DNA of 64,000 nucleotides, from assembly GCA_029233985.1 (NCBI GenBank), contig JARGOK010000002.1:310001-374000 (forward strand). Direction: 5' to 3'. Both the position numbers and the translations under genes were made by a program. The notes beneath the pieces were generated by a model that worked only from the letters and a program-made list of their open reading frames with translations, was not told the origin of the DNA and did no database searches. Of this stretch, positions 391 through 49,363 are shown in pieces. The DNA comes from Candidatus Altimarinota bacterium. GTDB taxonomy: Bacteria; Patescibacteriota; Gracilibacteria; JAUYGZ01. Position 1 is the stretch's first letter. Each line of letters begins with the position of its first letter.

Positions 391-1269
391 CTAGTTCTTT
401 CGCAATGATTTGTACACTGCCAAAACTCCATACATTGGAACAATACCAACGATTGACTGCAACAACATTTGGATACTGTAGATTCCAACCGTAGATGGAT
501 TCACAAAGAGACTAAACATTTGAGAAACCGAATCTAGAGCAGCTTGAAAATTTTGTTGAGCCACATCAGCACTCAATCCAGATTCAAGACTTTCTAAAGC
601 AGAAAAATCTACCACGGAAGACAAACCAAGCTTAAAGACGACATCGATAATCATCAAAACAACACCAGAGAGAACTCCCCAAAACAAAAGTGCTCCAAAA
701 ACAGACCACCATCTCCCAGAGACCAAGGCTCGAGAATGCTTGATGGCTTCAAGAGGTCCATCATGATCAATGATCACCAAGAACATTCCAAATGACAATC
801 CAAGAGCCAAGTAAATCCCCGGAACAACCAATAGAACAAATCCAATACCAATCAAAAGAGTCGCCAATATTCCAAATCCAATCATACTCAAAAGCGTCAT
901 CCAGTAGTTTTTAGTCCCTCGAGACCATACCTCTCCAGCAGTTTGAGCAGCTTTATCATCTAATACAACTCGATAAAACCCAAAGGTTATAACCATTCCT
1001 ACCAAAGACGTGACCAAAGCGAAGATTCCAAATACTCCGAGGTATGGAACATAAGACATCCAATCAAAGGCTCCATCAAGCAAGGCTTCAGCATTTCCGA
1101 TCATTTCTAGAATAGGACCATATAAAAGAGCCGCACTCGCAGCAAAGAATACAACCGCAATCACAAAACGAAGAATCACATACCACATATACGTCTGCCA
1201 TCGGTTTTGAAGCAAGTGAGTAAACTCACCCCAACTTTGGGACAAAAGAGAAGAACTTTGCTTAGCCAT
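391..1269 (-). CDS. Multi-pass membrane protein, YciC/GDPD-membrane-domain-like
   Basis: A 292-residue integral membrane protein with about six hydrophobic segments, near residues 29-50, 70-98, 125-165 (two), 188-212 and 275-290. The central stretch VPGIYLALGL, then an acidic turn, then EAIKHSRALVSGRWW, is the pattern of the YciC / glycerophosphodiesterase membrane-domain group, whose biochemical role is poorly known. No catalytic GDPD domain is attached. It is a single gene with its own terminator and faces the same way as dtd upstream. The family match is from memory of the motif; function is unknown. Confidence 0.75.
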   Translation of the reverse strand: MAKQSSSLLSQSWGEFTHLLQNRWQTYMWYVILRFVIAVVFFAASAALLYGPILEMIGNAEALLDGAFDWMSYVPYLGVFGIFALVTSLVGMVITFGFYRVVLDDKAAQTAGEVWSRGTKNYWMTLLSMIGFGILATLLIGIGFVLLVVPGIYLALGLSFGMFLVIIDHDGPLEAIKHSRALVSGRWWSVFGALLFWGVLSGVVLMIIDVVFKLGLSSVVDFSALESLESGLSADVAQQNFQAALDSVSQMFSLFVNPSTVGIYSIQMLLQSIVGIVPMYGVLAVYKSLRKN

Positions 1270-1364
1270 AAAAAAAGATAAAGAAATAACACATATGATC
1301 TCATATTATCAATTTATTGCATTTGACTGAAGGAATCCCCCTTGTACAAGCAGAATCCTATGAT

Positions 1365-1826
1365 CTATTCAGATTTTTGAAGAGAATCAATCACCAAAGT
1401 AAAAGGACCATCATTCACAGATGAGACTTTCATATATGCTTGAAATTCACCTGTCTCCACTTTCAATTCACAAGCCGTCTTCAACTTCTCAACAAATTTC
1501 TCATAAGTTTGCTTCGCCTCATCAATAGCTGCGGCATCAGTAAAAGCAGGTCTCCTCCCTTGATCTACGCGTCCATAAAGCGTGAATTGAGAAACCACCA
1601 AGATTTCCAATTCAAGATCAAGAACCGACTTATCAAGAGATTTTCCTGTCTCAGGATCATCAAAAATCCGCAAATTCAGCATTTTACTGATCACATACTC
1701 CATTTGCTCCTCTCCATCACCATGTGTAATACCTAAATACACCAAAACCCCCTGATCAATCCTTCCAATGATTTCGCTATCAACCGAAACCGATGCCTGA
1801 TCGACCCTTTGTAATACAATTTTCAT
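1365..1826 (-). CDS. dtd: D-aminoacyl-tRNA deacylase
   Basis: DTD hydrolyses D-aminoacyl-tRNAs (and Gly-tRNA-Ala) in the cytoplasm so that D-residues do not enter protein. The 153-residue length is typical. The N-terminus MKIVLQRVDQASVSV, the motif SQFTLYGRVDQGRRPAF (usually SQFTLYGD.kGrRPsF) and the C-terminal NDGPFTLVIDS are the family signatures, the last two forming the substrate pocket. The internal ATG giving MKIVLQRV was chosen over one three codons upstream because the family begins there. Confidence 0.95.
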   Translation of the reverse strand: MKIVLQRVDQASVSVDSEIIGRIDQGVLVYLGITHGDGEEQMEYVISKMLNLRIFDDPETGKSLDKSVLDLELEILVVSQFTLYGRVDQGRRPAFTDAAAIDEAKQTYEKFVEKLKTACELKVETGEFQAYMKVSSVNDGPFTLVIDSLQKSE

Positions 1827-1835
1827 ATTATCCAC

Positions 1836-2168
1836 ATTAAAGACACATTGATTTTAACGCACCAATACACATATGAATAGCTCCCCTACTATTTTAATCA
1901 CGTTGAAAAGATTTTTGATAAAAGAGTGTAACAAAATTCCAAGTTCATCGTATTAAACAATGCAGAACAAAAAAATCATCCTCATTTTTCATCTCATGTT
2001 CATTTCTTACGATCACCGCGAAGCCATTGAAATACTTTAATGAAACAGCATATCGGGATCCAAACCCTGATATCGTTTCATCACGATTGTCGAAAGTCCT
2101 CAAGACCTCTCACATGACCAAATATATTTCACACGTATGATCTTTCTACTACAGATCTTATTTTCATT
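1836..2168. other. Intergenic region upstream of the SLH gene
   Basis: 333 bases between dtd and the SLH gene. The only structure I see is an imperfect hairpin at 2040-2081: ATGAAAC pairs with GTTTCAT, with further paired blocks inside. It has no T run, so it is not a terminator. A weak -10-like TATGAT lies near 2137. No coding sequence is supported. Confidence 0.4.
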
Positions 2169-3407
2169 ATGACAAAAAAACTCCTAGCATCATTCATCGT
2201 CCTCATCCTCAGTCTATCTACCATGCTGAGTGTTCAAGCAATTAGCACTATCTCAACGCTCTTTCCAGACGTACCAGAAAATCATCCACACTCCCAGAGC
2301 ATTAGAGAAACACAAGAACTTGGTATCGTTTCAGGATACCCAGATGGAACCTACAAACCTGATCAAGAAATCAATCGAGCCGAGTTCAGCAAAATCATTC
2401 TAGAAGCAGTATTTGAAACAATCCCAGACGCAAAAGAAGCTAACTGTCTCTCTGATATTTCTCCAGATCAATGGTTCCAAAAATATGTGTGCTATGCAAA
2501 AGCACAAAAAATTATTCAAGGATACGAAGACGGAACTTTCAAACCTAGCAAAAACATCAACCTTGCTGAGTCATTCAAAATACTCTTCAATACCTTTGAT
2601 CTCCCAACTGTACAATTCATTACAGCTCCAGAAAACTGGTACGAGTACTTTACACTTTCCCTCAAAGAAAGTTTCAAAGAAGACACAACACTCGACCCAT
2701 CAGCGGATATCGCAAAGTCAATCACTCGTGGTGAAATGGCATCCCTCATTCGTCACTTCCAAAAAGTAAAAGAGGAAATGACCCCAAAAATCTCAAAAGC
2801 ACCAGGAACATTCACAACCCCAGTCCTCTTAAAACGGAGCTTTTCAGACGATACTCTCAGACTTTCAAGCAATATTATGTACCCCAATGGTTGTGGTGAA
2901 CCCATTTCTAGCGTCGATATTGCAGAATCATTCCCCGAGCAACTCTCTCTCTCTATCGATGAAAAAGTACAAGATCCTAAAGAAGAAATATGCACCATGG
3001 CTCTTGCGGAACACCCAATCGAGTACAATATGAAGGTCTCAGAAAAAGCAACCATTAAAAGCCTCACAGCTTATGGCAATAACGCAGATTTTCACATTTA
3101 CAACGAAACTGCAGCTGAAGTATCAGAAAAAATCATCAGTTTTTCCAAAGGAGAGCTCATGGAAGGAAAAATCACATTAAGTGCAAAAATTCCTGCAGAT
3201 CTCAGCTGTAGCATCCTCAGACGAACTCAACATATTTATGACGGGTACACTCCAGTGGCTCATATTGAGATAGAAATCGAGCAACAAACAGAAAACTGCA
3301 ATAATACCATGGGAGAACTCGAATTTACCATTGATATAAATCCACAAGCAGAACTAAGAACAGTCCTCAATGGAGAATCAGTCAAGAATATCGTAGAAGA
3401 AGAATAA
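2169..3407 (+). CDS. Exported SLH-domain protein
   Basis: A 412-residue protein with an N-terminal signal peptide (lysines, then a long hydrophobic core ending near VQA at residue 24). S-layer homology repeats lie at about 30-80 (FPDVPENH...GYPDGTYKPDQEINRAEF) and 95-145 (GYEDGTFKPSKNINLAE), with a weaker third near 152-195 ending in ITRGEM. SLH domains bind cell-wall polymers, so this is a surface protein. The C-terminal half (about 200-412) holds a few Cys and a probable beta-rich domain that I do not recognise. Two other SLH proteins occur near 28 and 31 kb. Confidence 0.85.
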   Translation: MTKKLLASFIVLILSLSTMLSVQAISTISTLFPDVPENHPHSQSIRETQELGIVSGYPDGTYKPDQEINRAEFSKIILEAVFETIPDAKEANCLSDISPDQWFQKYVCYAKAQKIIQGYEDGTFKPSKNINLAESFKILFNTFDLPTVQFITAPENWYEYFTLSLKESFKEDTTLDPSADIAKSITRGEMASLIRHFQKVKEEMTPKISKAPGTFTTPVLLKRSFSDDTLRLSSNIMYPNGCGEPISSVDIAESFPEQLSLSIDEKVQDPKEEICTMALAEHPIEYNMKVSEKATIKSLTAYGNNADFHIYNETAAEVSEKIISFSKGELMEGKITLSAKIPADLSCSILRRTQHIYDGYTPVAHIEIEIEQQTENCNNTMGELEFTIDINPQAELRTVLNGESVKNIVEEE

Positions 3408-3467
3408 GAATCACTTTTTATTGGTATCCTCAGCAAATGGAACCGTAGCGAAATAAAGCAGAGAACA

Positions 3468-4784
3468 CTACCCTCTCACTCCCTTCAAAGTCTCTACTCT
3501 CTGCTGAACCAATTCATCAGACCCAATGTCTTTCCGATAAAAAATATTCCCTTTCACTTGCTCAATACCAGCCAGTGCCTTTACTCGTGCTTCAGATATC
3601 GTATCCGCAATCCCCACTATCCCAAGAGACCTAGAACCTGTTGTTTTCACCACACCGCCTTCCTCACTGACAGAAGAATAGAACAACTCCACTCCTTCTG
3701 GCATTTGCCCAATCTCCAAAATTTCTCCCTTAGCAGAATTCTCTGGGTACCCATCTGGCACAACGTACAAACACACGGTAGCTTGTTTTTTCCAAGACAG
3801 TGTCAGAGTACTCAATTCACCATTCAAAATAGCATGACAAACATCAATAAAATCTGTTTCTAGTAGAGGAAGCACATTCAAAGCCTCTGGGTCACCAAAA
3901 CGAGCATTGTACTCGATCAGTTTCACACCACTCTTTGTTGCCATAAACCCTCCAAACAAAATCCCTTTGAAAGGCTGGCCCGTATCTTCTTTCACTGCTT
4001 TTATAACAGCTTCTGAAATATCCTTCGCCTGTTGAACATCCTCAGGAGTTAAGAACGGTAATAAATGATCAACGTCAGAATAAGTCCCCATTCCCCCTGT
4101 ATTTGGTCCTTCATCTCCTTCATAAGCCCGTTTATGATCTTGAACAACTGGCATATACGCCAAATGCTCACCGTCCACAAAAGCCATCAATGAAAACTCC
4201 ACTCCAATAAATTTCTCTTCGATCACGACCGAAGAATGACCAGCACTCAAACATTCCTTCACAAAACCCATTGCCTGTTCATGACTATTCAAATGATCAC
4301 CAGAGACCTTCACACCTTTTCCCCCCATCAATCCATCTGCTTTCACCACATAATCTTCTCCCAATTCTTCAAGAAATGGATACACTCCATCTTCACTTTC
4401 AAATCGTCTAAACCGAGGATTACCAGGAATTAAGTTTCGTTCGAGAAGTTCACGCGTGTAGTACTTGCTCGACTCCAACTGAGCCGGAGCCTGAAAAGGA
4501 GCTACTGAAGCCACTCCAATTTCACCAAGAACATCCACCATCCCATCTCCAATAGGATTATCTGGTCCAACGACCGCAAAGTCAGGTTTTGTTTTCTTTA
4601 CATACTCACGAAGCTCATCAAAATGCGATAGATTATCCACTACATGGTAATCAGCAGCCAATTTCTTAATCCCAGGATTCACATTATTCGCAAACACTAC
4701 CAACTCCACACCATATTTTGACCGAGCAATCGCTTCAGCTATTGCATGTTCACGACCACCATTACCCACCAGAAGAACTTTCAT
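3468..4784 (-). CDS. purD: Phosphoribosylamine-glycine ligase
   Basis: GARS joins phosphoribosylamine and glycine using ATP, the second step of purine synthesis. The N-terminus MKVLLVGNGGREHAIAEAI is the family signature. The ATP-grasp part includes YVVKADGLMGGKGVKV, EGDEGPNTGGMGTYSD and the metal-binding IEYNARFGDPEALNVLP. The length of 438 residues is close to the usual 420-430. An upstream ATG would add MKQMI, but the family begins at MKVLLVG. No other purine gene adjoins it here. It is divergent from the ParB-like gene, 45 bases away. Confidence 0.97.
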   Translation of the reverse strand: MKVLLVGNGGREHAIAEAIARSKYGVELVVFANNVNPGIKKLAADYHVVDNLSHFDELREYVKKTKPDFAVVGPDNPIGDGMVDVLGEIGVASVAPFQAPAQLESSKYYTRELLERNLIPGNPRFRRFESEDGVYPFLEELGEDYVVKADGLMGGKGVKVSGDHLNSHEQAMGFVKECLSAGHSSVVIEEKFIGVEFSLMAFVDGEHLAYMPVVQDHKRAYEGDEGPNTGGMGTYSDVDHLLPFLTPEDVQQAKDISEAVIKAVKEDTGQPFKGILFGGFMATKSGVKLIEYNARFGDPEALNVLPLLETDFIDVCHAILNGELSTLTLSWKKQATVCLYVVPDGYPENSAKGEILEIGQMPEGVELFYSSVSEEGGVVKTTGSRSLGIVGIADTISEARVKALAGIEQVKGNIFYRKDIGSDELVQQRVETLKGVRG

Positions 4785-4829
4785 AATCATTTGTTTCATG
4801 AAATACTATGCCCTCAGACTACACCATCC

Positions 4830-5363
4830 ATGAAATTCATCAAATCAACATCTTGGGAAGCCATCGAAAAAACCTGGCAAAAAAATGAAGAGCCATTGCA
4901 GGACTCGAGAAACAAAACCAATAACAATGGACAGAGCTCTTGGAAGACCTGGAGACAACCCTACATAAATGCAGTAGGAGCATCTGAACTCATCTGGCAT
5001 CAATACCGAACAACTCCAAATGAAGCCATAAACTGGTCTTGTGGAGCTTTTCAAATCTGGATTAAACGTGCCATGGATATAAGGTCACGTGTCTTCAAAG
5101 AACTTGCCACTCACAAATGCTTTGAAGACCACGAGAAAATTAATCCACTTATGAATTCCTTTCCACAAACTATCGAACTCATTGCTCTCAAGAAAAACGA
5201 CAGCATATATGTTTTTGAAGGGCACCACCGCCTCATTTCACTCGCTTTACTGATAGAACAAAATCCAAAATTTTCTTGTAACATCATCGTTAATCTCGCA
5301 AAAATTCCGAATCACAACCCCTTTCCCTTAATAGATTACACGCCACCAGAATTAGGAAAATAA
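4830..5363 (+). CDS. Small ParB/Srx-fold-like protein of unknown function
   Basis: A 177-residue protein. The only recognisable motif is VFEGHHRLISLALL near the C-terminus, which resembles the GHHRL/GxHR box of ParB/sulfiredoxin-fold proteins. The remainder, with several Trp residues, is unfamiliar. A longer frame starting at 4746 would overlap purD; the ATG at 4830 removes the overlap and gives a cleaner start. Partition function is not implied, since no ParA or parS site is seen. It lies 54 bases before the LOG-family gene and may share its transcript. Confidence 0.6.
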   Translation: MKFIKSTSWEAIEKTWQKNEEPLQDSRNKTNNNGQSSWKTWRQPYINAVGASELIWHQYRTTPNEAINWSCGAFQIWIKRAMDIRSRVFKELATHKCFEDHEKINPLMNSFPQTIELIALKKNDSIYVFEGHHRLISLALLIEQNPKFSCNIIVNLAKIPNHNPFPLIDYTPPELGK

Positions 5364-5417
5364 TTGACCAAAATGGCTTCTACTAGTACAGTTCAGCCTC
5401 AAAATTAATCACTAGCT

Positions 5418-6638
5418 ATGAGTTTCCCCCACTGCGAAAAAAAAGCATCGTATGTTAAAGCCTCCCCAAAATGCTTCTCAAAAGAGGAACTTGAAAGAAG
5501 GTACAAAAATGGAGAGAGAGACAATGTGGCTGCAGTAGGCATTCAACTCAAGGCATTTGAAATTCTCAATAACCCTTTTTTAGATCTCACACAAGAAACA
5601 CGAGAATTGATGGAAAAGATTCAAAGCCTAGCTTTTTCAGGGTATCACCCAAGCACTAGCGAAATCGCTTCACTCGAACAAATTTGTCATCGCAATGAAC
5701 GCATTCTCTCATTCGTAAATGAGATCAGAAATGATATCAAACAAAGCCAAAGCCACTGGAAAGCGACAAAATATACCGGCGAACGCCTTCTCTTTCATCA
5801 AGATGTTGATGCCGTTGCAAACCTCGCTTCCCATTTGGAAGAAGAACGTATTATCGTTTTTGGGTCAGCCCGACTCAAAGCTGGTCATCCTGCTTATGAT
5901 GGAACACAATGGCTCATGAGAACGCTCGTTGGAAGCCTCACTCATGCTGATGGAACCACAGAACAAGTCATCACCGGAGGGGGTCCAGGCATCATGGAAG
6001 CCGCCAATAAAGGGGCTATGGAGGGGGCATGGAATCATTATCAAACACTCTTAGAAAAACTCCATGCTCATCCAGAAGATCCAAAAATCATCCAACACAT
6101 TCTCAATTTTCGAATGCAAATGCAAAGCCTTGCCATTGGAATAATTGTTCCTCATGAACAAAGCTACAATGAATATCTCCAAGGACATGTCATCAGTAAA
6201 ACATTTTCACCAAGAAAAATGGGGATCCTTTCCGCAGGTACTGGAAGAAGTATTAATCACACCCCAACAGAAGGTCCAAACGGAAATGAAGAAGGAAAAC
6301 GTAAACCTGCTATCTTTGTAATGACAGGAGGACTCGGAACACTAGACGAAAATTATGAAGTGGGGACGCTAACCCAATGCAACAAGCTAAAAAACCCTTT
6401 GCCAATTTTTATCGTAGGAGAAAAAATGTCTGAAATCGTCAAAAAATCAACCGAAGGGCTCTATGATCTCAAAACCATCAAACCAAAAGATTTAGAACTC
6501 TTTATTTATTGTGCTGATGAATTCGATGCCCTAGAAAAGTATCTCGACTATTACAAGACTCTTCCAAACGAAAGAATATTACAATCCATCATAGATCGAA
6601 GAAACGAAGCCGGGATACAAAGAAGTCTTTTCAACTAA
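5418..6638 (+). CDS. LOG-family / lysine-decarboxylase-like Rossmann protein
   Basis: A 406-residue protein whose central region carries the LOG (TIGR00730/YgdH) signatures: IIVFGSARL near 145, GGGPGIMEAANKGA at 187-200, and TGGLGTLDENYE near 305 in place of the usual PGGxGTxxE. Family members are nucleotide 5'-monophosphate phosphoribohydrolases, some of which make cytokinin bases or recycle purine nucleotides. The N-terminal 120 residues and the long form resemble YgdH/PpnN rather than short LOG proteins. The Pro-to-Thr change in the second motif is unusual but leaves the Gly and Glu/Asp pattern. Substrate is not known. Confidence 0.8.
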   Translation: MSFPHCEKKASYVKASPKCFSKEELERRYKNGERDNVAAVGIQLKAFEILNNPFLDLTQETRELMEKIQSLAFSGYHPSTSEIASLEQICHRNERILSFVNEIRNDIKQSQSHWKATKYTGERLLFHQDVDAVANLASHLEEERIIVFGSARLKAGHPAYDGTQWLMRTLVGSLTHADGTTEQVITGGGPGIMEAANKGAMEGAWNHYQTLLEKLHAHPEDPKIIQHILNFRMQMQSLAIGIIVPHEQSYNEYLQGHVISKTFSPRKMGILSAGTGRSINHTPTEGPNGNEEGKRKPAIFVMTGGLGTLDENYEVGTLTQCNKLKNPLPIFIVGEKMSEIVKKSTEGLYDLKTIKPKDLELFIYCADEFDALEKYLDYYKTLPNERILQSIIDRRNEAGIQRSLFN

Positions 6639-6642
6639 AAAA

Positions 6643-7284
6643 TCACCAGACTCTCGTCACCTCCAAACCAGCTCCAATCTCCAAACAGGCGCTTTCAAAG
6701 CGCTTGTTTTTTCGGACAAAGTCCAAATACACCTGAGATGCATCAGGATGAGACAAAACATTATCAGCGCAAATAAAAGCCCCTTTCTTCAGCTTTGGAA
6801 GAATCAACTCCAAATGAGGCAAATAATCAGATTTTCTCTGATCAAAAAACACAAAATCAATCTTTTCACGTCCAGAGTGCTTCACCCAGCGAGTGAATTC
6901 AGCCGGAACCAACTCAACAACTTCTTGAACATTTCGAGCTCCATGTTTGCCAACTAAAGCATTTTTTAAAGTAAATCGTTCCATATTCTTTTCCCATTCC
7001 CTCACTTTTGGTGGAAAATACTCAAAACTCGTCACTTTCCCTCCCGTATACTGAAAGCCAGCAACAAGCCAAGACGTACTCATCCCAACCCCAGCTCCCA
7101 CCTCAATTCCCCTTTTGAGGCCATAAAACTGGATCAACCACATCATATACTGCCCTATACTCATATCCACAGGCCACAAACCACGACCAAATTGGCCAGT
7201 CTTCAAGAGACCTTCTTCTTTTGCATACAACCGAGAAATAGCACTTAAATCCATAATTTTACTTGTCAGAACAGGTACATCCAT
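6643..7284 (-). CDS. Class I SAM-dependent methyltransferase, O-methyltransferase-like
   Basis: A 213-residue cytoplasmic protein. GIEVGAGVGMSTSWLVAG near residue 55 is the glycine-rich SAM-binding motif I. FVFFDQRKSDYLPHLELILPKLKKGAFICADN is the later strand and helix pattern of COMT-like O-methyltransferases, with Asp in the metal or catalytic position. The substrate cannot be told. It converges on the LOG gene with only four bases between stops. It could start at the internal ATG at residue 11; the longer start is kept for lack of evidence either way. Confidence 0.75.
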   Translation of the reverse strand: MDVPVLTSKIMDLSAISRLYAKEEGLLKTGQFGRGLWPVDMSIGQYMMWLIQFYGLKRGIEVGAGVGMSTSWLVAGFQYTGGKVTSFEYFPPKVREWEKNMERFTLKNALVGKHGARNVQEVVELVPAEFTRWVKHSGREKIDFVFFDQRKSDYLPHLELILPKLKKGAFICADNVLSHPDASQVYLDFVRKNKRFESACLEIGAGLEVTRVW

Positions 7285-7327
7285 TGTAAACTACTCTAGC
7301 TGTAAAAAGAATCGTTTAGGAACCTCG

Positions 7328-7363
7328 AGTTCCATCAGTTCTCACAGTTCCTACAGTTCCTAA
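7328..7363. repeat. Tandem 9-base repeat, about four copies
   Basis: Four consecutive 9-base units of the type agttccatc / agttctcac / agttcctac / agttcctaa lie directly upstream of rpmA. They are degenerate but in clear register. Similar low-complexity phrases occur near 52277-52325. They may lie in the rpmA leader. Confidence 0.7.
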
Positions 7364-7372
7364 TAAATAGAT

Positions 7373-7744
7373 ATGGCACATAAAAAAGCAGGTGGAAGTA
7401 CCGATAACGGTAGAGATAGCAATGCGAAACGACGTGGGGTAAAGCTCTACGGAGGTCAAAAAGCTACACCTGGAAACATTATTGTACGACAAAAAGGAAC
7501 CAAGTGGTTTCCTGGACTTGGAGTAAAAATGGGAAGAGATTTCACCATCTTTGCTACTGCTGAAGGGAATGTAACCTATACCAAGAAGCGACAAAAGAAA
7601 TTCAACGGGCAAACGCATTACAATACTATTGTAAATGTTTTCGCAGAAACAAAACCCGCAGCAAAAAAAACTGCTAAAAAAGAAGAAAAAACTCCTGCTC
7701 CTAAAGCTGTAACAAAAACATCTGAAGAAGCCGTTGCTGCTTAG
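7373..7744 (+). CDS. rpmA: 50S ribosomal protein L27 with C-terminal extension
   Basis: L27 (bL27) sits near the peptidyl-transferase centre, with its N-terminal tail reaching the tRNA ends. The start [24 protein letters not shown] and [15 protein letters not shown] are diagnostic. No cleavable leader of the Firmicutes type precedes AHKKAGG. The core ends near residue 90, then about 33 residues rich in Lys, Ala and Thr follow, longer than the usual 85-95 total. rplU (L21), the usual partner upstream, is absent; a convergently placed methyltransferase precedes it. A terminator follows closely. Confidence 0.97.
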
Positions 7745-7765
7745 TAAAGCAGACAGAAAACCCTA

Positions 7766-7800
7766 AAATCCCCCTACTAAACACAGGGGGTTTTTATTTT
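7766..7800 (+). terminator. Terminator of rpmA
   Basis: A CCCCCT/AGGGGG stem (7770-7775 with 7785-7790) has a nine-base loop and is followed by a T run. It lies about 25 bases past the rpmA stop. Confidence 0.88.
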
Positions 7801-7935
7801 GTTGAAATCAACAGGAAAAACTAGCGGAAAACTGCTAAAAAGCCTATAATCTTATATTAAAAGACAGAAAAGCATTGTAATATCTCAAAAGAGAATTATA
7901 ATGCTATCTGATAAAAATAACCCCAATTCTTCACA

Positions 7936-9030
7936 ATGAGTTCACCTAACTCATCAGAGCGTGAAAAATATTTATACAATCTAGATTTAAAAAATGCTAG
8001 TAATAACCCATATCTCGATTACGAAGCATTAAAAAAAGTGATGTTTAAAATATTTCAAGGAAAAAAAACGATCAGTTATGAAAGACAAAAAGAATTAACA
8101 AAACTTTCATACAGTCCAATAGACATGGAAACTTATGCAAAATTGCATAATTTTTCAGACACATTAATGGTGACTGAATACTTCGCATACACGAGAACAA
8201 AAATTCAAAACATAACCAATAGGACTGATAGAATATTGGTAGTTGGATGTGGACAGGGAAGACTAGCTGAAGTTTATCTAACTCTAGCTGCTATATACAA
8301 TGTAAAGGAAGTTGTTTTTCTCGATTTGATAAAAGAACATGTCGAACAAACAGAAGAAAAAATACGATTAGCAAAAGAAGCCAACCCAAGATTAAGAAAT
8401 GTTAAAACAGAACTAATAGTAGGTGATATTAATGAAACAGAGATAAACTCAGTATTTGATTCAATTTGGCTCATTTGGTTTGTAAGTTCAGAATTTTGCA
8501 ATGCAGAATCACCAGAAGCGCTGATTTCAACTCGAAATAGAATTTATCAAAAATTTAACAAACTCTTAACTCCTCAAGGAGCTTTGATTGAAGACATTCC
8601 AGATCCAAATATGGAACCTGGTTTTTATCATCTTGGAAACCTCATATCTGAAGATATATTGCGAAGAAATGGAATATTACCAGGACAACAAAAAAACTTA
8701 CTCCTCAGCAACTGGAGTCCTGAACAACCGGAGAAAGACAACGTTTCATTTCCATATCAACTAAGGTTTACCGCAAGAAATGGATGGGATGTTCAAGAAA
8801 AAGAAAGAGCTGGTTTTGCTATGAAAAAAAATGACCAACTGAAAATCCCAATCTCGTCGACATATGCTATTGACACCGCCCTAAGTATGATTCGCGAAAG
8901 CTCACCAACAAACATGGGGCAAATTTTAAGGGATCTCAAATCACTCGCAAATAACACTATTCAGTACCCAGAAATTGATGTTGTAGATCAAAAAAGAAGG
9001 AAAATAACCTGGTGGGAAAAGACAAACTAA
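7936..9030 (+). CDS. SAM-dependent methyltransferase-like protein
   Basis: A 364-residue protein. RILVVGCGQGRLAEVYL near residue 97 is a class I methyltransferase motif I, followed by VVFLDLIKEHVEQ (acidic residue at the end of strand 2) and VGDINETEINSVFDSIWLIWFVS (motif II/III region). The first 90 residues and the C-terminal third are not recognised. The coding DNA looks more AT-rich than purD or typA, so recent acquisition is possible. Its stop lies two bases from the convergent TrmB-like gene. Substrate unknown. Confidence 0.65.
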   Translation: MSSPNSSEREKYLYNLDLKNASNNPYLDYEALKKVMFKIFQGKKTISYERQKELTKLSYSPIDMETYAKLHNFSDTLMVTEYFAYTRTKIQNITNRTDRILVVGCGQGRLAEVYLTLAAIYNVKEVVFLDLIKEHVEQTEEKIRLAKEANPRLRNVKTELIVGDINETEINSVFDSIWLIWFVSSEFCNAESPEALISTRNRIYQKFNKLLTPQGALIEDIPDPNMEPGFYHLGNLISEDILRRNGILPGQQKNLLLSNWSPEQPEKDNVSFPYQLRFTARNGWDVQEKERAGFAMKKNDQLKIPISSTYAIDTALSMIRESSPTNMGQILRDLKSLANNTIQYPEIDVVDQKRRKITWWEKTN

Positions 9031-9032
9031 TT

Positions 9033-9740
9033 TTAAGTGTATTTCCAAAGTTTTTGAAAGATTTCTTTTAGTGTTGCAGCTTCACTATGATCTCTTCTCA
9101 AGGTACCAGTAAATGGCTCATGTAGAGAAAAAGTCATCACTAGGTCACCAACAACATTTATATTGGCATCAATCTTAAAATCAGGAATCATCTTAATAAA
9201 AGTATAATTATCCTGGTACTCTTTTTTATATTCAATATCCACATCCTCATTAGGAGTAATAACATGTGCTGATATTTTATTATCAATTCTACGTTTGATA
9301 TAATGATCAATAAAATCTGTATCTAATATTTCTGCATCTTGAGCGCTTTCAAAAGCAAGAATATCTTCTCCTTTTTTTATAGCCTCACCTAAAACCTCTA
9401 AATAAACCCGTTTAATCCCCTCAATACCTTCGTATTTCACAATCCCAATAGATTCAGACTCTTTCAATGAAAATAAAACTTTTTTTACATTTTCAATCAA
9501 ATCTTCATCTAATTGCGAAAGTTCAAGAGGAATAAAAGATGCAGTTGTTTCTTCGAATAAAAGAAGCTTTTTTTCTTCAAGAAGTGTCAATGATTCATCA
9601 ATATCTTTTTCATCATACTCAAGAAACGAAAGCAACTCATCCTTAGTAAGCTTTCTTAGAGCACATAGTTCAACATACACATCAGCAGTTATTTCATTAA
9701 AATCAAACATTTCCGCTATTTCTGCCAAATTAATTGTCAT
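9033..9740 (-). CDS. TrmB-like transcriptional regulator
   Basis: A 235-residue protein with an N-terminal winged-helix-like region (ADVYVELCALRKLTKDELLSFL...SLTLLEEKKLL), followed by a domain with SIGIVKYEGIEGIKRVYLEVLGEAIKKGEDILAF, the layout of TrmB and related regulators where the C-terminal part resembles a phospholipase-D-type sensor. Family members bind sugars or other ligands; none can be assigned here. The ATG at 9740 lies directly after the stop codon of the HD gene (spacing of about one base), implying translational coupling. An upstream start would overlap that gene by 70 bases. Confidence 0.6.
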   Translation of the reverse strand: MTINLAEIAEMFDFNEITADVYVELCALRKLTKDELLSFLEYDEKDIDESLTLLEEKKLLLFEETTASFIPLELSQLDEDLIENVKKVLFSLKESESIGIVKYEGIEGIKRVYLEVLGEAIKKGEDILAFESAQDAEILDTDFIDHYIKRRIDNKISAHVITPNEDVDIEYKKEYQDNYTFIKMIPDFKIDANINVVGDLVMTFSLHEPFTGTLRRDHSEAATLKEIFQKLWKYT

Positions 9741-9741
9741 A

Positions 9742-10293
9742 TTATGGTGTTTTAAGACGTAATTGAATAGCTTGAAGTTCTTTTTTGAGTTGCCCGTAAA
9801 GAGATTCAACAACTTTTTTATAAGTCTCTAAAGGAACCTTTTCGAGAATCATTTTAAAAACAGGCAACAAGGTTTCATGAGTTTCTTGTATATATTCCCT
9901 TTGCTTTGGCACAGAAAAACCTTGAATTGTCTGAAGATTGTGAAGCCTATCTGACATTTTAATAATAATAGCTTCTGGGTATTGTATCCAAGCCGATTCC
10001 ATTTCATCCATATTGCTCTTCATTTTACAATACCCTGTATTCCAAACATCTCTTTTGGAGAGCAAATACACAATATGGGCAACTCTTTCACCAAAACGAA
10101 GTGCCAAATAATTCTTGGAAAGGTCTGTATCTTCTAAAACATCATGCAAAAGCGCAGCCTCCAAAACCTCTTCGTCTGATACTCCCAGGTTTACCAAAGC
10201 TTGTTTTACGGCATACATATGGCTCGTAAAAGGATGACCAGTTTTTCGTTTTTTTCCGTAATAGAGCTTCTCAATAAAGCGTTCTGTGCGCAT
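9742..10293 (-). CDS. HD-domain (p)ppGpp hydrolase-like protein (MESH1/SpoT-HD type)
   Basis: A 183-residue stand-alone HD protein. HPFTSHMYAV, then EAALLHDVLEDTDL (the HDxxED pair), then IIKMSDRLHNLQTI match the metal-binding and hydrolase motifs of the SpoT N-terminal domain and MESH1-type small alarmone hydrolases. There is no synthetase or TGS/ACT domain. It would remove (p)ppGpp, or a related pyrophosphate-bearing nucleotide, in the cytoplasm. The ATG giving MRTERFIEKLYYGKK was chosen because upstream codons are hydrophobic non-family sequence. It is coupled to the TrmB-like regulator downstream. Confidence 0.8.
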   Translation of the reverse strand: MRTERFIEKLYYGKKRKTGHPFTSHMYAVKQALVNLGVSDEEVLEAALLHDVLEDTDLSKNYLALRFGERVAHIVYLLSKRDVWNTGYCKMKSNMDEMESAWIQYPEAIIIKMSDRLHNLQTIQGFSVPKQREYIQETHETLLPVFKMILEKVPLETYKKVVESLYGQLKKELQAIQLRLKTP

Positions 10294-10368
10294 GAAGAAA
10301 AGATGAATATTCAGTAAGAAAGTGTACTCCCGATACCTATCGAGCACAAGTTCTAGAACACTCTTTTC

Positions 10369-11724
10369 TTATCTTCGAGGACGAACAGGTGGCGGTGGCT
10401 CAAGCACTGCAGGATCAAAACCTAAACTCTCGCTCAACTTCTTTTGGATCTTCGCACGATCTTCTTTAGGAGCAATTTTAATAATCTCACGTATTCGAGG
10501 CACTTCATCGAGAGGAAGTTCTCCATCATCCAAGCGCTTTACAAACCAATCGACCAACTCAACAGCGTCTTTTGGGGGTGGGTTGTCTTTTCGCACTTGC
10601 TCTTTTCTAATCTCTCGAAGTTCTTCGCGTACTTCTACATCGTCACCTCGATCAATCCTCTCTACAAATTCTTCACGCCGAGAAGGAGGTATCAAGTCAC
10701 TCATATTCTCTAATTTCATTTTGAAATGACCACGTTTTTTTTCACGGAATTTTTCAAGCCTTTCTTCATGCTTCCATTGTTTTTTAAAATCCTTAATGTG
10801 TTTTCGAACCTCTTCCCCTCTCCCTTCTTCAATCAATTGATCGATATGTTTTTCAAGCACTTCAATTTCTTCATGAGAAATATTCTTTTCAGCGAACTTC
10901 TTCACTCGTCGAATATCCATTTCTGAACGCACTCTCTCAAAATGTTTACGGTGCCCTTCCATTTTCTTTCTTTTAAAAGGAATTTCAATGGGTCGAGGGT
11001 CAAAAGGAACCCCATCTAGAGATTGCTCACGAGCTTCTTTCAAATCATCTCTCAGATCACCAAACAACTGCCGATGTTGCTGAACAGCATCAGAAACTCT
11101 TTTAAAAGTCCTTCTCTCATCATCCTTTGAGATCTTCACATTCAAGGACTCCAGCACAGTGTCTCGATACAAATGAAAGCTATCAGCCTTTGCTGAAAGA
11201 TCTTCTAAAATATCTAAGTCTTCAATAACCGAAATCTCCTCCAACGCCAAAGCTTCATAATTTGAGGCCTCAATAATCAATTCTGACACTTCAGAATCAA
11301 CCTCTTCAGTGTCTTGAGCAAAAGCCTCTGGTATAAAGTCAAAAGCAACAGAAGTACCATCCAAGAGAAGCTCAGCCTCTTCTAAACGTCTTTGTGAAAG
11401 TCCAAAGAGCTGCTCAACACGCTCAGCTGATGTTGTGGTGTCTTCTAAATACGCTACTTCAAGATCTCTTCTCATTTCATATAAAAAATCTCCTGGGACA
11501 ACTGCACCATTATAAGCATGAAAACGAGCTCCCATCGTCCCGCAAGCAGCCACTACGGAGAGTGTCAAACCACTTGCCACGAGTTTTTTCACTGACAACA
11601 CTTGATTCACCTCAACAAACCATCTTGCCACCTTCAGCTTTATCACCCGAACACGAATCTTCACATCCAACATCACTGGAAATTTCTTGAGAGGAAGCCG
11701 AAATTTTTCTTGATCTTGTGACAT
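10369..11724 (-). CDS. DUF5667-type membrane protein, long charged C-terminal region
   Basis: A 451-residue protein. A basic cytoplasmic N-terminus (1-45) leads into one hydrophobic segment (about 46-62), then GAVVPGDFLYEMRRDLEVAYLEDTTTSAERVEQLFGLSQRRLEEAE, the DUF5667 pattern found in Patescibacteria. A long Lys/Glu/Arg-rich, mostly helical region (200-430) and a Pro-rich tail follow. It is the next gene after an ECF sigma factor, a position often held by anti-sigma factors, so a membrane anti-sigma or signal role is plausible but inferred. A palindromic element separates the two genes. Confidence 0.75.
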   Translation of the reverse strand: MSQDQEKFRLPLKKFPVMLDVKIRVRVIKLKVARWFVEVNQVLSVKKLVASGLTLSVVAACGTMGARFHAYNGAVVPGDFLYEMRRDLEVAYLEDTTTSAERVEQLFGLSQRRLEEAELLLDGTSVAFDFIPEAFAQDTEEVDSEVSELIIEASNYEALALEEISVIEDLDILEDLSAKADSFHLYRDTVLESLNVKISKDDERRTFKRVSDAVQQHRQLFGDLRDDLKEAREQSLDGVPFDPRPIEIPFKRKKMEGHRKHFERVRSEMDIRRVKKFAEKNISHEEIEVLEKHIDQLIEEGRGEEVRKHIKDFKKQWKHEERLEKFREKKRGHFKMKLENMSDLIPPSRREEFVERIDRGDDVEVREELREIRKEQVRKDNPPPKDAVELVDWFVKRLDDGELPLDEVPRIREIIKIAPKEDRAKIQKKLSESLGFDPAVLEPPPPVRPRR

Positions 11725-11750
11725 AGCGTCAATGATTAGTAATTTGTGTT

Positions 11751-11899
11751 ATTCCCCTTTTAAGGGGTTAGGGGTCAGGGGTGGTGAGCAAGGTGCTGGC
11801 TCCATGTCTCTGACTGGAGCCGGTGGGAGGTGTGGGCTACAGTCCGGAGACATGGAGCCAGCAGATCAATTCTATTCCCCTTTTAAAGGGGTTAGGGGT
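11751..11899. repeat. Composite palindromic element between sigma and DUF5667 genes
   Basis: Two copies of attccccttttaaggggt followed by taggggt-like bases bound the region (11751-11775 and 11874-11899). Between them is a 71-base stem-loop: a perfect 17-bp outer stem (11794-11810 with 11847-11863) and a 10-bp inner stem with one mismatch (11812-11821 with 11835-11844), loop 11822-11834. It is far more GC-rich than its surroundings. It could be a MITE/REP-type mobile repeat or an RNA structure in the sigma-DUF5667 transcript. Confidence 0.8.
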
Positions 11900-11903
11900 T
11901 GGC

Positions 11904-12464
11904 CTACAAAAAGAATAATATAAATAAATACACAAGCGGAGCATTCTTCCTCAATCTTTTCATTCCTCGGCTAATACTCTGCCGAACATTCCCCTCAGAC
12001 TCTCCCATAATATCTGCAATCTGACTTGTTTCCATATCCTCCAAGTACTTGAGAACAATACACTCTCTCTGCAAGGCTGGAAGCGTATCCAAGACCTCTT
12101 TCACCTGCTCTACACTCATCTCAGCACTCAGCTTATTTTCAAAATCAGTACTGTCCTCATCCTCGATCTCAATCCCCTTTTCATTCATAGTCTCAATACT
12201 CGTAGTCTTTTTATGCCGTCGAAAATAATCAATCATTGTGTTTCGAGCGATAGTATAGATCCAAGTACTAAACGCATACGTATCATCATAGCTTTCAAAC
12301 TTCTCAAAAGCCTTTATAAACGTATCGCTGGTCAGGTCATCTACCAAAGCCGAATCTCGGTCAAGACGGTAAAAAAAGAAATTATAGACCTTCTTTTTAT
12401 AATCGTGATAATAATCATCAAACGTCATCAGGAATGGCATTGCGGATACGGATTGCTCAGGCAT
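11904..12464 (-). CDS. ECF-type RNA polymerase sigma factor
   Basis: A 186-residue sigma-70-family factor. Region 2 (about 25-90) includes DLTSDTFIKAFEKF and AFSTWIYTIARNTMIDYFRRHKK, the core-binding and -10 recognition helices. Region 4 (about 125-180) has LPALQRECIVLKYLEDMETSQIADIMGESEGNVRQSISRGMKRLRK, the -35 helix-turn-helix. Regions 1 and 3 are missing, as in ECF factors. The last 11 residues are hydrophobic (PLVYLFILFFL), not usual for the family; the stop codon lies five bases from a palindromic repeat. It may regulate the following DUF5667 gene or be inhibited by its product. Confidence 0.9.
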   Translation of the reverse strand: MPEQSVSAMPFLMTFDDYYHDYKKKVYNFFFYRLDRDSALVDDLTSDTFIKAFEKFESYDDTYAFSTWIYTIARNTMIDYFRRHKKTTSIETMNEKGIEIEDEDSTDFENKLSAEMSVEQVKEVLDTLPALQRECIVLKYLEDMETSQIADIMGESEGNVRQSISRGMKRLRKNAPLVYLFILFFL

Positions 12465-48287: not shown

Positions 48288-48316
48288 TTGACAATTAAAG
48301 ATGCAACACTTACAAT
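48288..48316 (+). promoter_or_regulatory. Strong sigma-70-type promoter of the 48.5 kb gene
   Basis: TTGACA (48288-48293), exactly 17 bases, then TACAAT (48311-48316). It fits the bacterial consensus closely and would start a transcript near 48323. Confidence 0.75.
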
Positions 48317-48360
48317 GCGTTCTCTCATTACAGAGATCGTTCTTTGACAGCACAAAGTAT

Positions 48361-48488
48361 GTTTTGACCAGTACTCAGGGACCCTTCTGCACCTTTTGGT
48401 ATAGAGCGCTAACCGCTTTGATAAGGGATTAAGTATAACCTTATCACCTCAAGTATCAGTAGGGGGTTCACTCTCTGCTGGTCAAAAC
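48361..48488 (+). ncRNA. Candidate structured 5' leader RNA
   Basis: A multi-branched fold is seen: P1 11 bp GTTTTGACCAG/CTGGTCAAAAC (48361-48371 with 48478-48488), P2 about 7 bp (48379-48385 with 48463-48469, G-U allowed), and two hairpins, AGCG/CGCT (48405-48408 with 48414-48417) and GATAAGG/CCTTATC (48420-48426 with 48439-48445). It lies about 40 bases after a strong promoter and ends about 19 bases before the start codon of an unknown protein. It matches no riboswitch I know. Confidence 0.6.
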
Positions 48489-48507
48489 AACAACAGAAAA
48501 AAGAATC

Positions 48508-49305
48508 ATGAATCAAGACTCGTCCACCCTAGAGGTGGAAAAAAAAGCCGCTTTGGCCTTCGTCGCACAATATGAGATTATGCCAGAAGTCGAAAGACTC
48601 ACAGATTTTATCATTTCCGAACCTGAGCATTATCCTCAGCTAAAAGACCTGAGTGTGCTCATCAAAGAAGAGTCTAAAAAGAGTACTCTAGGAGAAATCC
48701 TTAATTCCATCATCAGAGATGGAGATTCTGAAAATGGATGTATTTGCGGCCGACCAGGTTGCAAAAACTTCCCAAATCACCAAGAATCTAATGTGAAATT
48801 CGAAGGCATAGATGGTCATGAAATGACCAATACTCTCAATCTCCTCATGGGAAAGAATGAAAAACCAAAGCAATTCGGGTTCATTCTTCCCGGAGAAGAT
48901 GCAAATAAAATCCCAAGCCACTGTCAAGATGAAGCTTTTAGTATCCTTGCTTCTCGAGTTACTTCAGCGGTGCTGAAGCACATCCCATTTGCAATGAGCC
49001 GTCAGGATCGTCTTCTTTCAGTTGGTAGGGAAAAACTGACTCATGAAGAAATAGAGACAAAGCAGCAAATGAGAGAACTCAAGCTAGTAATGGAAAAACT
49101 CGAGCTCGCTCAGAAAAACAATGCCTCAAATAAAAAAATCGAGCTAGCCAAAAAAGCCGGAACGCTCCTAAGGGCACAAAAAACCCTTAGTGAACACTTC
49201 CCAGACATAAAGCTGAATTATGCTGAAAAGTTTGTCGATCCTGCACATCAACCTTCTGAAGATCAAAAAATGTCCATAGACGCCGTAAAGGAAGGCGTTT
49301 ACTAA
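48508..49305 (+). CDS. Unknown protein with CxC-C-H motif
   Basis: A 265-residue soluble protein. CIC (78, 80), Cys 85 and His 91 in GCICGRPGCKNFPNH suggest a small metal-binding site. Residues about 175-245 form a charged helix or coiled coil (KQQMRELKLVMEKLELAQKNN). I recognise no family. It stands alone between a strong promoter with a structured leader and a terminator, so it is regulated separately from its neighbours. Confidence 0.6.
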   Translation: MNQDSSTLEVEKKAALAFVAQYEIMPEVERLTDFIISEPEHYPQLKDLSVLIKEESKKSTLGEILNSIIRDGDSENGCICGRPGCKNFPNHQESNVKFEGIDGHEMTNTLNLLMGKNEKPKQFGFILPGEDANKIPSHCQDEAFSILASRVTSAVLKHIPFAMSRQDRLLSVGREKLTHEEIETKQQMRELKLVMEKLELAQKNNASNKKIELAKKAGTLLRAQKTLSEHFPDIKLNYAEKFVDPAHQPSEDQKMSIDAVKEGVY

Positions 49306-49314
49306 TTTTTTCAC

Positions 49315-49327
49315 TGACCAGCAGAGA
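49315..49327 (+). promoter_or_regulatory. 3'-UTR segment complementary to the leader RNA
   Basis: TGACCAGCAGAGA here is the exact reverse complement of 48472-48484 in the leader. It may compete with the leader's own stem. It ends four bases before the terminator. Confidence 0.5.
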
Positions 49328-49330
49328 CTA

Positions 49331-49363
49331 AGATCGTTCCCCTCGGGGTTCGGTCTTTTTCTA
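49331..49363 (+). terminator. Terminator of the 48.5 kb gene
   Basis: AGATCG-TT-CCCC pairs with GGGG-TT-CGGTCT, a two-part stem with a G-U, then TTTTTC. Confidence 0.75.

Follow-up and report, generated by a model that had tools for sequence, protein, structure and literature searches.

A candidate mRNA family whose folded 5′ leader can pair with its own 3′ tail, found in two copies in one Patescibacteria-like genome

A single-gene unit with a folded leader and a complementary tail

A short unit with one gene, here called unit A, lies on the plus strand of the window, the whole 64-kb stretch of DNA that was analysed. The original prediction had placed here a near-consensus promoter, a multi-branched leader fold, an exact 13-base complement between leader and 3′ UTR and a terminator beyond it, and each was recovered. 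The promoter, TTGACA-17-TACAAT (48288-48316; TTGACA at 48288-48293 and TACAAT at 48311-48316), was the sole plus-strand site scoring at least 11/12 in a promoter scan of the window. On the opposite strand, a scan for antisense RNA found one promoter-like site (48459-48432, 9/12), no more than shuffled sequence gives.

The 141-nt leader folds with a minimum free energy of -52.4 kcal/mol (z -6.5; 0 of 200 shuffles as good) and ranks among the most stable stretches of that length in the window. Its basal helix P1 is present in the fold and longer than the 11 bp ascribed to it at the outset: it comprises 14 bp that enclose those 11 (left arm UGUUUUGACCAGUA, 48360-48373; right arm, 48476-48489). 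Above P1 follow a 3x3 internal loop (left side YUC/CUC, 48374-48376; right side, 48473-48475), helix P2, whose left arm (48377-48385) pairs with 48463-48472 around a bulged A at 48470, and three apical hairpins (48386-48462). The Rfam comparison suggested with the original prediction gave no match for the leader in Rfam 15 at gathering score.

The open reading frame (48508-49305, plus strand) encodes a 265-residue protein with a C-x-C-x4-C-x5-H site, as had been noted. It is taken as coding because, by our estimate, a frame this long is very unlikely by chance at its composition; its codon usage is towards the lower end of that seen in the window and is uninformative on coding. Near its start, a small hairpin (48523-48539; UCCACC-CUAGA-GGUGGA) encodes STLEV. 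The tail, TGACCAGCAGAGA (49315-49327), is the exact complement of leader bases 48472-48484, and an intrinsic terminator follows at 49330-49361. Its hairpin (49330-49357) and U tract fold with -17.2 kcal/mol (z -3.8), and an internal U.U mismatch caused a simple terminator scanner to miss it.

The complementarity of leader and tail in unit A is real and above chance. Its 13-mer has no other exact occurrence in the 1.66-Mb genome, and the longest leader/tail complement in 2000 shuffles was 11 nt. Across 51 genes of the window, the next best complement after the 13 nt of unit A was 10 nt. An ORF scan covering about half of the genome (768 ORFs) returned true intergenic complements of at least 13 nt only at unit A, at a second unit described below and in one cassette array. 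Two further hits, at loci L123 and L107, were dropped since both begin inside other coding sequence.

A second copy in the same genome

A search of 60 genomes with R1, a covariance model of the unit A leader alone, gave exactly one further match, at C3:248740-248873 (E 5.6e-4). This match covers the entire model and lies in the same genome as unit A. Around it, unit B (C3:248687-249665) repeats the layout of promoter, P1/P2 leader, ORF and tail. The promoter, TTGACA-16-TACAAT (TTGACATTTAATGATG...TACAAT), shares 14 of its first 16 bases with that of unit A. The ORF (C3:248877-249653) encodes a different protein, of 258 aa. The tail, AAACCAGCAGAGA, overlaps the stop codon and matches leader bases TCTCTGCTGGTTT by exact complementarity over 13 nt. 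From the P1/P2 helix to the start codon there are 19 nt in A and 8 nt in B.

Unit B has no evident U-tract terminator. By eye, the gene upstream resembles asparaginyl-tRNA synthetase and the convergent gene downstream resembles smpB. After the tail of unit B, near the end of the smpB-like gene, lies a long hairpin that has no U tract (L053, 2430-2490). The genes neighbouring unit A are unconserved in the nearest relatives.

The two leaders differ in ways that preserve pairing. Over the 23 P1/P2 pairs of A and B, 97.8% of cells are paired, a share that falls to 37-49% once the partners are slid; the count comes from two sequences of one genome with two bulged bases removed from the B copy for column alignment. 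In six P1/P2 pairs, both bases differ between the two units and pairing is kept. At the inner end of the tail duplex, B likewise has U-A where A has C-G and U-A where A has A-U, and the duplex remains 13 bp with the same boundaries. The original prediction had named homologues without covarying pairs or without the 3′ complement as the sign of a chance fold; unit B, the sole homologous leader found, has both.

Conservation is concentrated on the strand common to both helices. This strand, TCACTCTCTGCTGGT (48468-48482 in A), can pair with either the P1/P2 left arms or the tail and is identical at 15 of 15 positions in A and B, while the left arm and the tail differ. Constraint should be greatest on a strand that has two partners, and an invariant strand with drifting partners is the behaviour expected of a switch strand. 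The 3x3 internal loop and the bulged A are also conserved; the apical hairpins differ in sequence and shape. The early-ORF hairpin of unit B (CCAACU-CUUGA-AGUUGG, encoding PTLEV) shares with that of unit A a 6-bp stem, a CUNGA loop, a position 32-35 nt past P1 and the same codon phase (TLEV), at differing distances from the start codon. A stem of 6 bp with a 5-nt loop occurs in 0.7% of random 30-nt stretches. Units A and B are best read as two members of one single-gene mRNA family.

Further copies were sought with a covariance model built from both sequences (R2), which returned A and B as its only hits in the genome that contains them; 37 relatives, among them two members of the same family, gave none. 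Look-alikes of the right arm occur at 23 places, comprising A, B, the tail of A itself and others that have no leader or tail. Exact-pattern scans gave 0 matches in the viral collection and 3 in the genome collection, none of them a convincing R2 match. One candidate (L074) was dropped on inspection, and another (L051) was dropped for its position within a gene that by eye resembles topoisomerase I.

The encoded proteins are not part of what the two units share. Protein A has no significant homologue in 60 relatives, its own genome, the viral, phage and plasmid collections or the genome collection, and no significant match in Pfam, NCBIfam, PHROGs, PADLOC or PDB; the original description of it as unrecognised holds. 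Against 353 genomes of the class, nothing was significant (best E 0.006, short fragments). For protein B, nothing convincing was found in the class, in the viral, phage and plasmid collections, or in Pfam, PHROGs, PADLOC and PDB. The two proteins do not align with each other, and the Cys/His site falls outside the conserved part because protein B is unrelated and has no such site. As to toxin peptides, A and B encode 265 and 258 aa and match no toxin or defence family. Single-sequence AlphaFold models were uninterpretable (pLDDT 42 for A and 37 for B). In at least one genome of the class (G012), genes read through TGA, a trait that tentatively points to Gracilibacteria-like Patescibacteria.

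Strand exchange and competing explanations

It is proposed, with a probability of about one half, that A and B represent an mRNA family in which one leader strand pairs alternately within a local helix and with the 3′ tail of the same message, an exchange that controls translation or decay. The nascent 5′ leader would fold first into the long closed P1/P2 helix. Once the 3′ end is made, the 13-nt tail would pair with the right strand of P1/P2, displace the left strand and join the ends of the mRNA. Because the promoter lies upstream of P1 and a terminator follows the tail, both pairing partners are expected on one transcript, and because the two states are mutually exclusive, the RNA would behave, on paper, as a two-state switch. 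Its input may be an intact 3′ end, or a binder of the apical domain or the tail, and its output translation or decay of the mRNA. Our guess would be that the tail unwinds P1, allowing complete mRNAs to be translated; control of opposite sign, known from hok, aapA and icaR, is just as likely. The original prediction of an undescribed regulated unit with a competing leader and tail is supported by unit B, through its compensatory changes and its own exact complement; that the exchange occurs in the cell and controls expression we infer.

Folding energies place the two states within reach of each other. The isolated 13-bp duplex was calculated at -23.6 (A) and -20.9 (B) kcal/mol, and P1 alone at -19.6 (A) and -13.0 (B), which makes the duplex the stronger helix in both units. 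With the ORF swapped for a neutral spacer of A bases, the tail-paired state lay 3.8 kcal/mol (A) or 0.1-0.4 kcal/mol (B) above the best fold, and both full-length folding and two-strand cofolding of A kept P1 over the tail duplex. These modelled values are consistent with a switch and fall short of proof.

Since few genes here have a Shine-Dalgarno site, hiding one was set aside as the principal mechanism: a Shine-Dalgarno-like sequence precedes 3 of 45 genes of the window. Unit B has a GAGG inside P1, adjoining the paired stretch, and unit A has no Shine-Dalgarno-like site in its paired stretch. Among the same 45 genes, TANAAT boxes are enriched 5-45 nt before the starts, where 9 genes have one, compared with 2 for a control interval. 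Together, the scarcity of Shine-Dalgarno sites and the enrichment of TANAAT boxes suggest many leaderless mRNAs, among which leaders of 156-185 nt would be exceptional.

Four other explanations were weighed. In the first, the element acts as DNA: the leader serves in recombination or transposition as a folded-strand site resembling attC, and the tail marks the corresponding end of a mobile cassette that carries the ORF. Integron attC sites form imperfect hairpins with conserved arms, an unpaired spacer, a bulged base and a variable terminal part. The A/B leader shares this ground plan, with arms conserved and terminal structure variable, and different cargo genes sit within one frame. The genome also encodes a recombinase of integron-like type and contains a cassette array with inverted ends on each cassette, and this reading arose because that array alone, besides A and B, has intergenic complements of at least 13 nt in the half or so of the genome that was scanned. 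Against it, the A/B arms share no sequence with the array repeats (ATACAACAGC..GCAAACGTTGTAT) and by eye do not have the GTTRRRY/RYYYAAC core of attC sites. A second site after the tail is absent, and no target duplication was seen. The homology of A and B takes in the promoter and the early-ORF hairpin, and the element is embedded in a promoter-led transcript. Furthermore, the 22-26 nt inverted ends of the array lie upstream of likely -10 boxes and are on that account placed outside the mRNAs, whereas the pairing ends of A and B lie inside the mRNA. A DNA-level function is considered unlikely, and it is the best placed of the four.

Next in order comes a ligand- or protein-sensing leader of a two-gene regulon, with the tail as a second copy of the binding site and no strand exchange, which we regard as improbable. 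A conserved internal loop and bulged A, a common promoter ahead of two dispersed genes and a CUNGA-loop hairpin at both ORF starts would suit such a sensor. The apical domain, where a ligand pocket usually lies, is nevertheless unconserved and the leader has no Rfam match, and a second binding site does not account for a tail that is an exact, fixed-length and covarying complement of the leader. Somewhat more doubtful still is closure of the mRNA ends for stability or processing, in which the mRNA is protected by P1 and the tail duplex, or RNase III acts on these helices, and no switching takes place. The long helices, the strong promoter and a terminator directly after the tail agree with it, but it leaves unexplained why one strand is common to two mutually exclusive helices. 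Finally, equally stable folds elsewhere in the window and genome recall a strong hairpin with an accidental complement beside an orphan ORF, an explanation that is very improbable because fold, tail, promoter and layout all recur in unit B, with compensatory changes.

Strand exchange in a shared leader remains the preferred reading. A more far-reaching form of it, which we hold as tentative, is that A and B define a new class of cis-acting RNA, known to date from one Patescibacteria-like genome. Such a class would consist of a reusable shell (promoter, strand-exchange leader, early-ORF hairpin and tail) that permits translation only with its own 3′ end and carries differing, fast-evolving cargo proteins.

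Comparison with known systems and with the cassette array

Few cases are known in which a bacterial mRNA is controlled by pairing of its own ends. In the icaR mRNA of Staphylococcus aureus, a 7-nt motif in the 3′ UTR pairs with the 5′ UTR over the Shine-Dalgarno site and affects translation and decay (PMC3868564). Units A and B likewise have complementary 5′ and 3′ segments, here exact over 13 nt with compensatory change, on what is presumably a single transcript. They differ in that the tail would pair with one side of a large leader helix, its right strand, lying 12-24 nt ahead of the start codon, in that no Shine-Dalgarno site is covered, and in that the arrangement is common to two non-homologous genes.

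The type I toxin mRNAs hok and aapA offer a second parallel, as their metastable 5′ hairpins retain a strand up to the synthesis of the 3′ end (PMC6733600). In these mRNAs, and on paper in A and B, a 5′ strand is first held in a local hairpin and later pairs with the 3′ end of the full-length mRNA. The toxin mRNAs encode short toxic peptides and have an antisense RNA, whereas A and B encode soluble-looking proteins of 258-265 aa and no antisense RNA was identified for them.

Judged from the two copies found so far, A and B would represent a shared and apparently undescribed RNA switch. If so, two paralogous shells with unrelated proteins, a frozen switch strand and covarying partners of that strand would amount to a natural, testable way of sensing whether a transcript is complete, and this in bacteria whose gene regulation has hardly been studied. 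The comparison also illustrates that an apparent one-off feature can be validated within a single genome.

The cassette array is of interest in itself. It lies in the same genome (L094, C5:114001-134000, positions 597-10450) and is an integron-like system of about seven cassettes in both orientations. Its tyrosine recombinase (597-1418), about 240 kb from unit A, gives strong matches to NF040815 and TIGR02249 that fall below the cut-offs. The cassettes encode a reverse transcriptase, HAD, HD and FAD enzymes and unknowns, and are separated by imperfect palindromes of about 94 nt ending in GCAAACGTTGTATGACAT. Every cassette has inverted ends of its own, 22-30 nt long (3008-3033/4564-4589, 8176-8197/9454-9475 and others), two pairs of them perfect, located beyond the repeat arms and upstream of the gene's likely -10 box. 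Such ends beyond the repeat arms are unusual for integron cassettes. The reverse transcriptase (3104-4525; 473 aa, YADD) weakly resembles those of group II introns and defence-associated systems.

Elsewhere in the window, a very stable palindrome (11731-11930) separates a sigma-factor-like gene from the gene that follows. It combines two repeat families (CCCCTTTTAAGGGGTTAGGGG and an inverted GCTGGCTCCATGTCTC) with many recurrences in the parts of the genome that were read, and is REP- or MITE-like in character.
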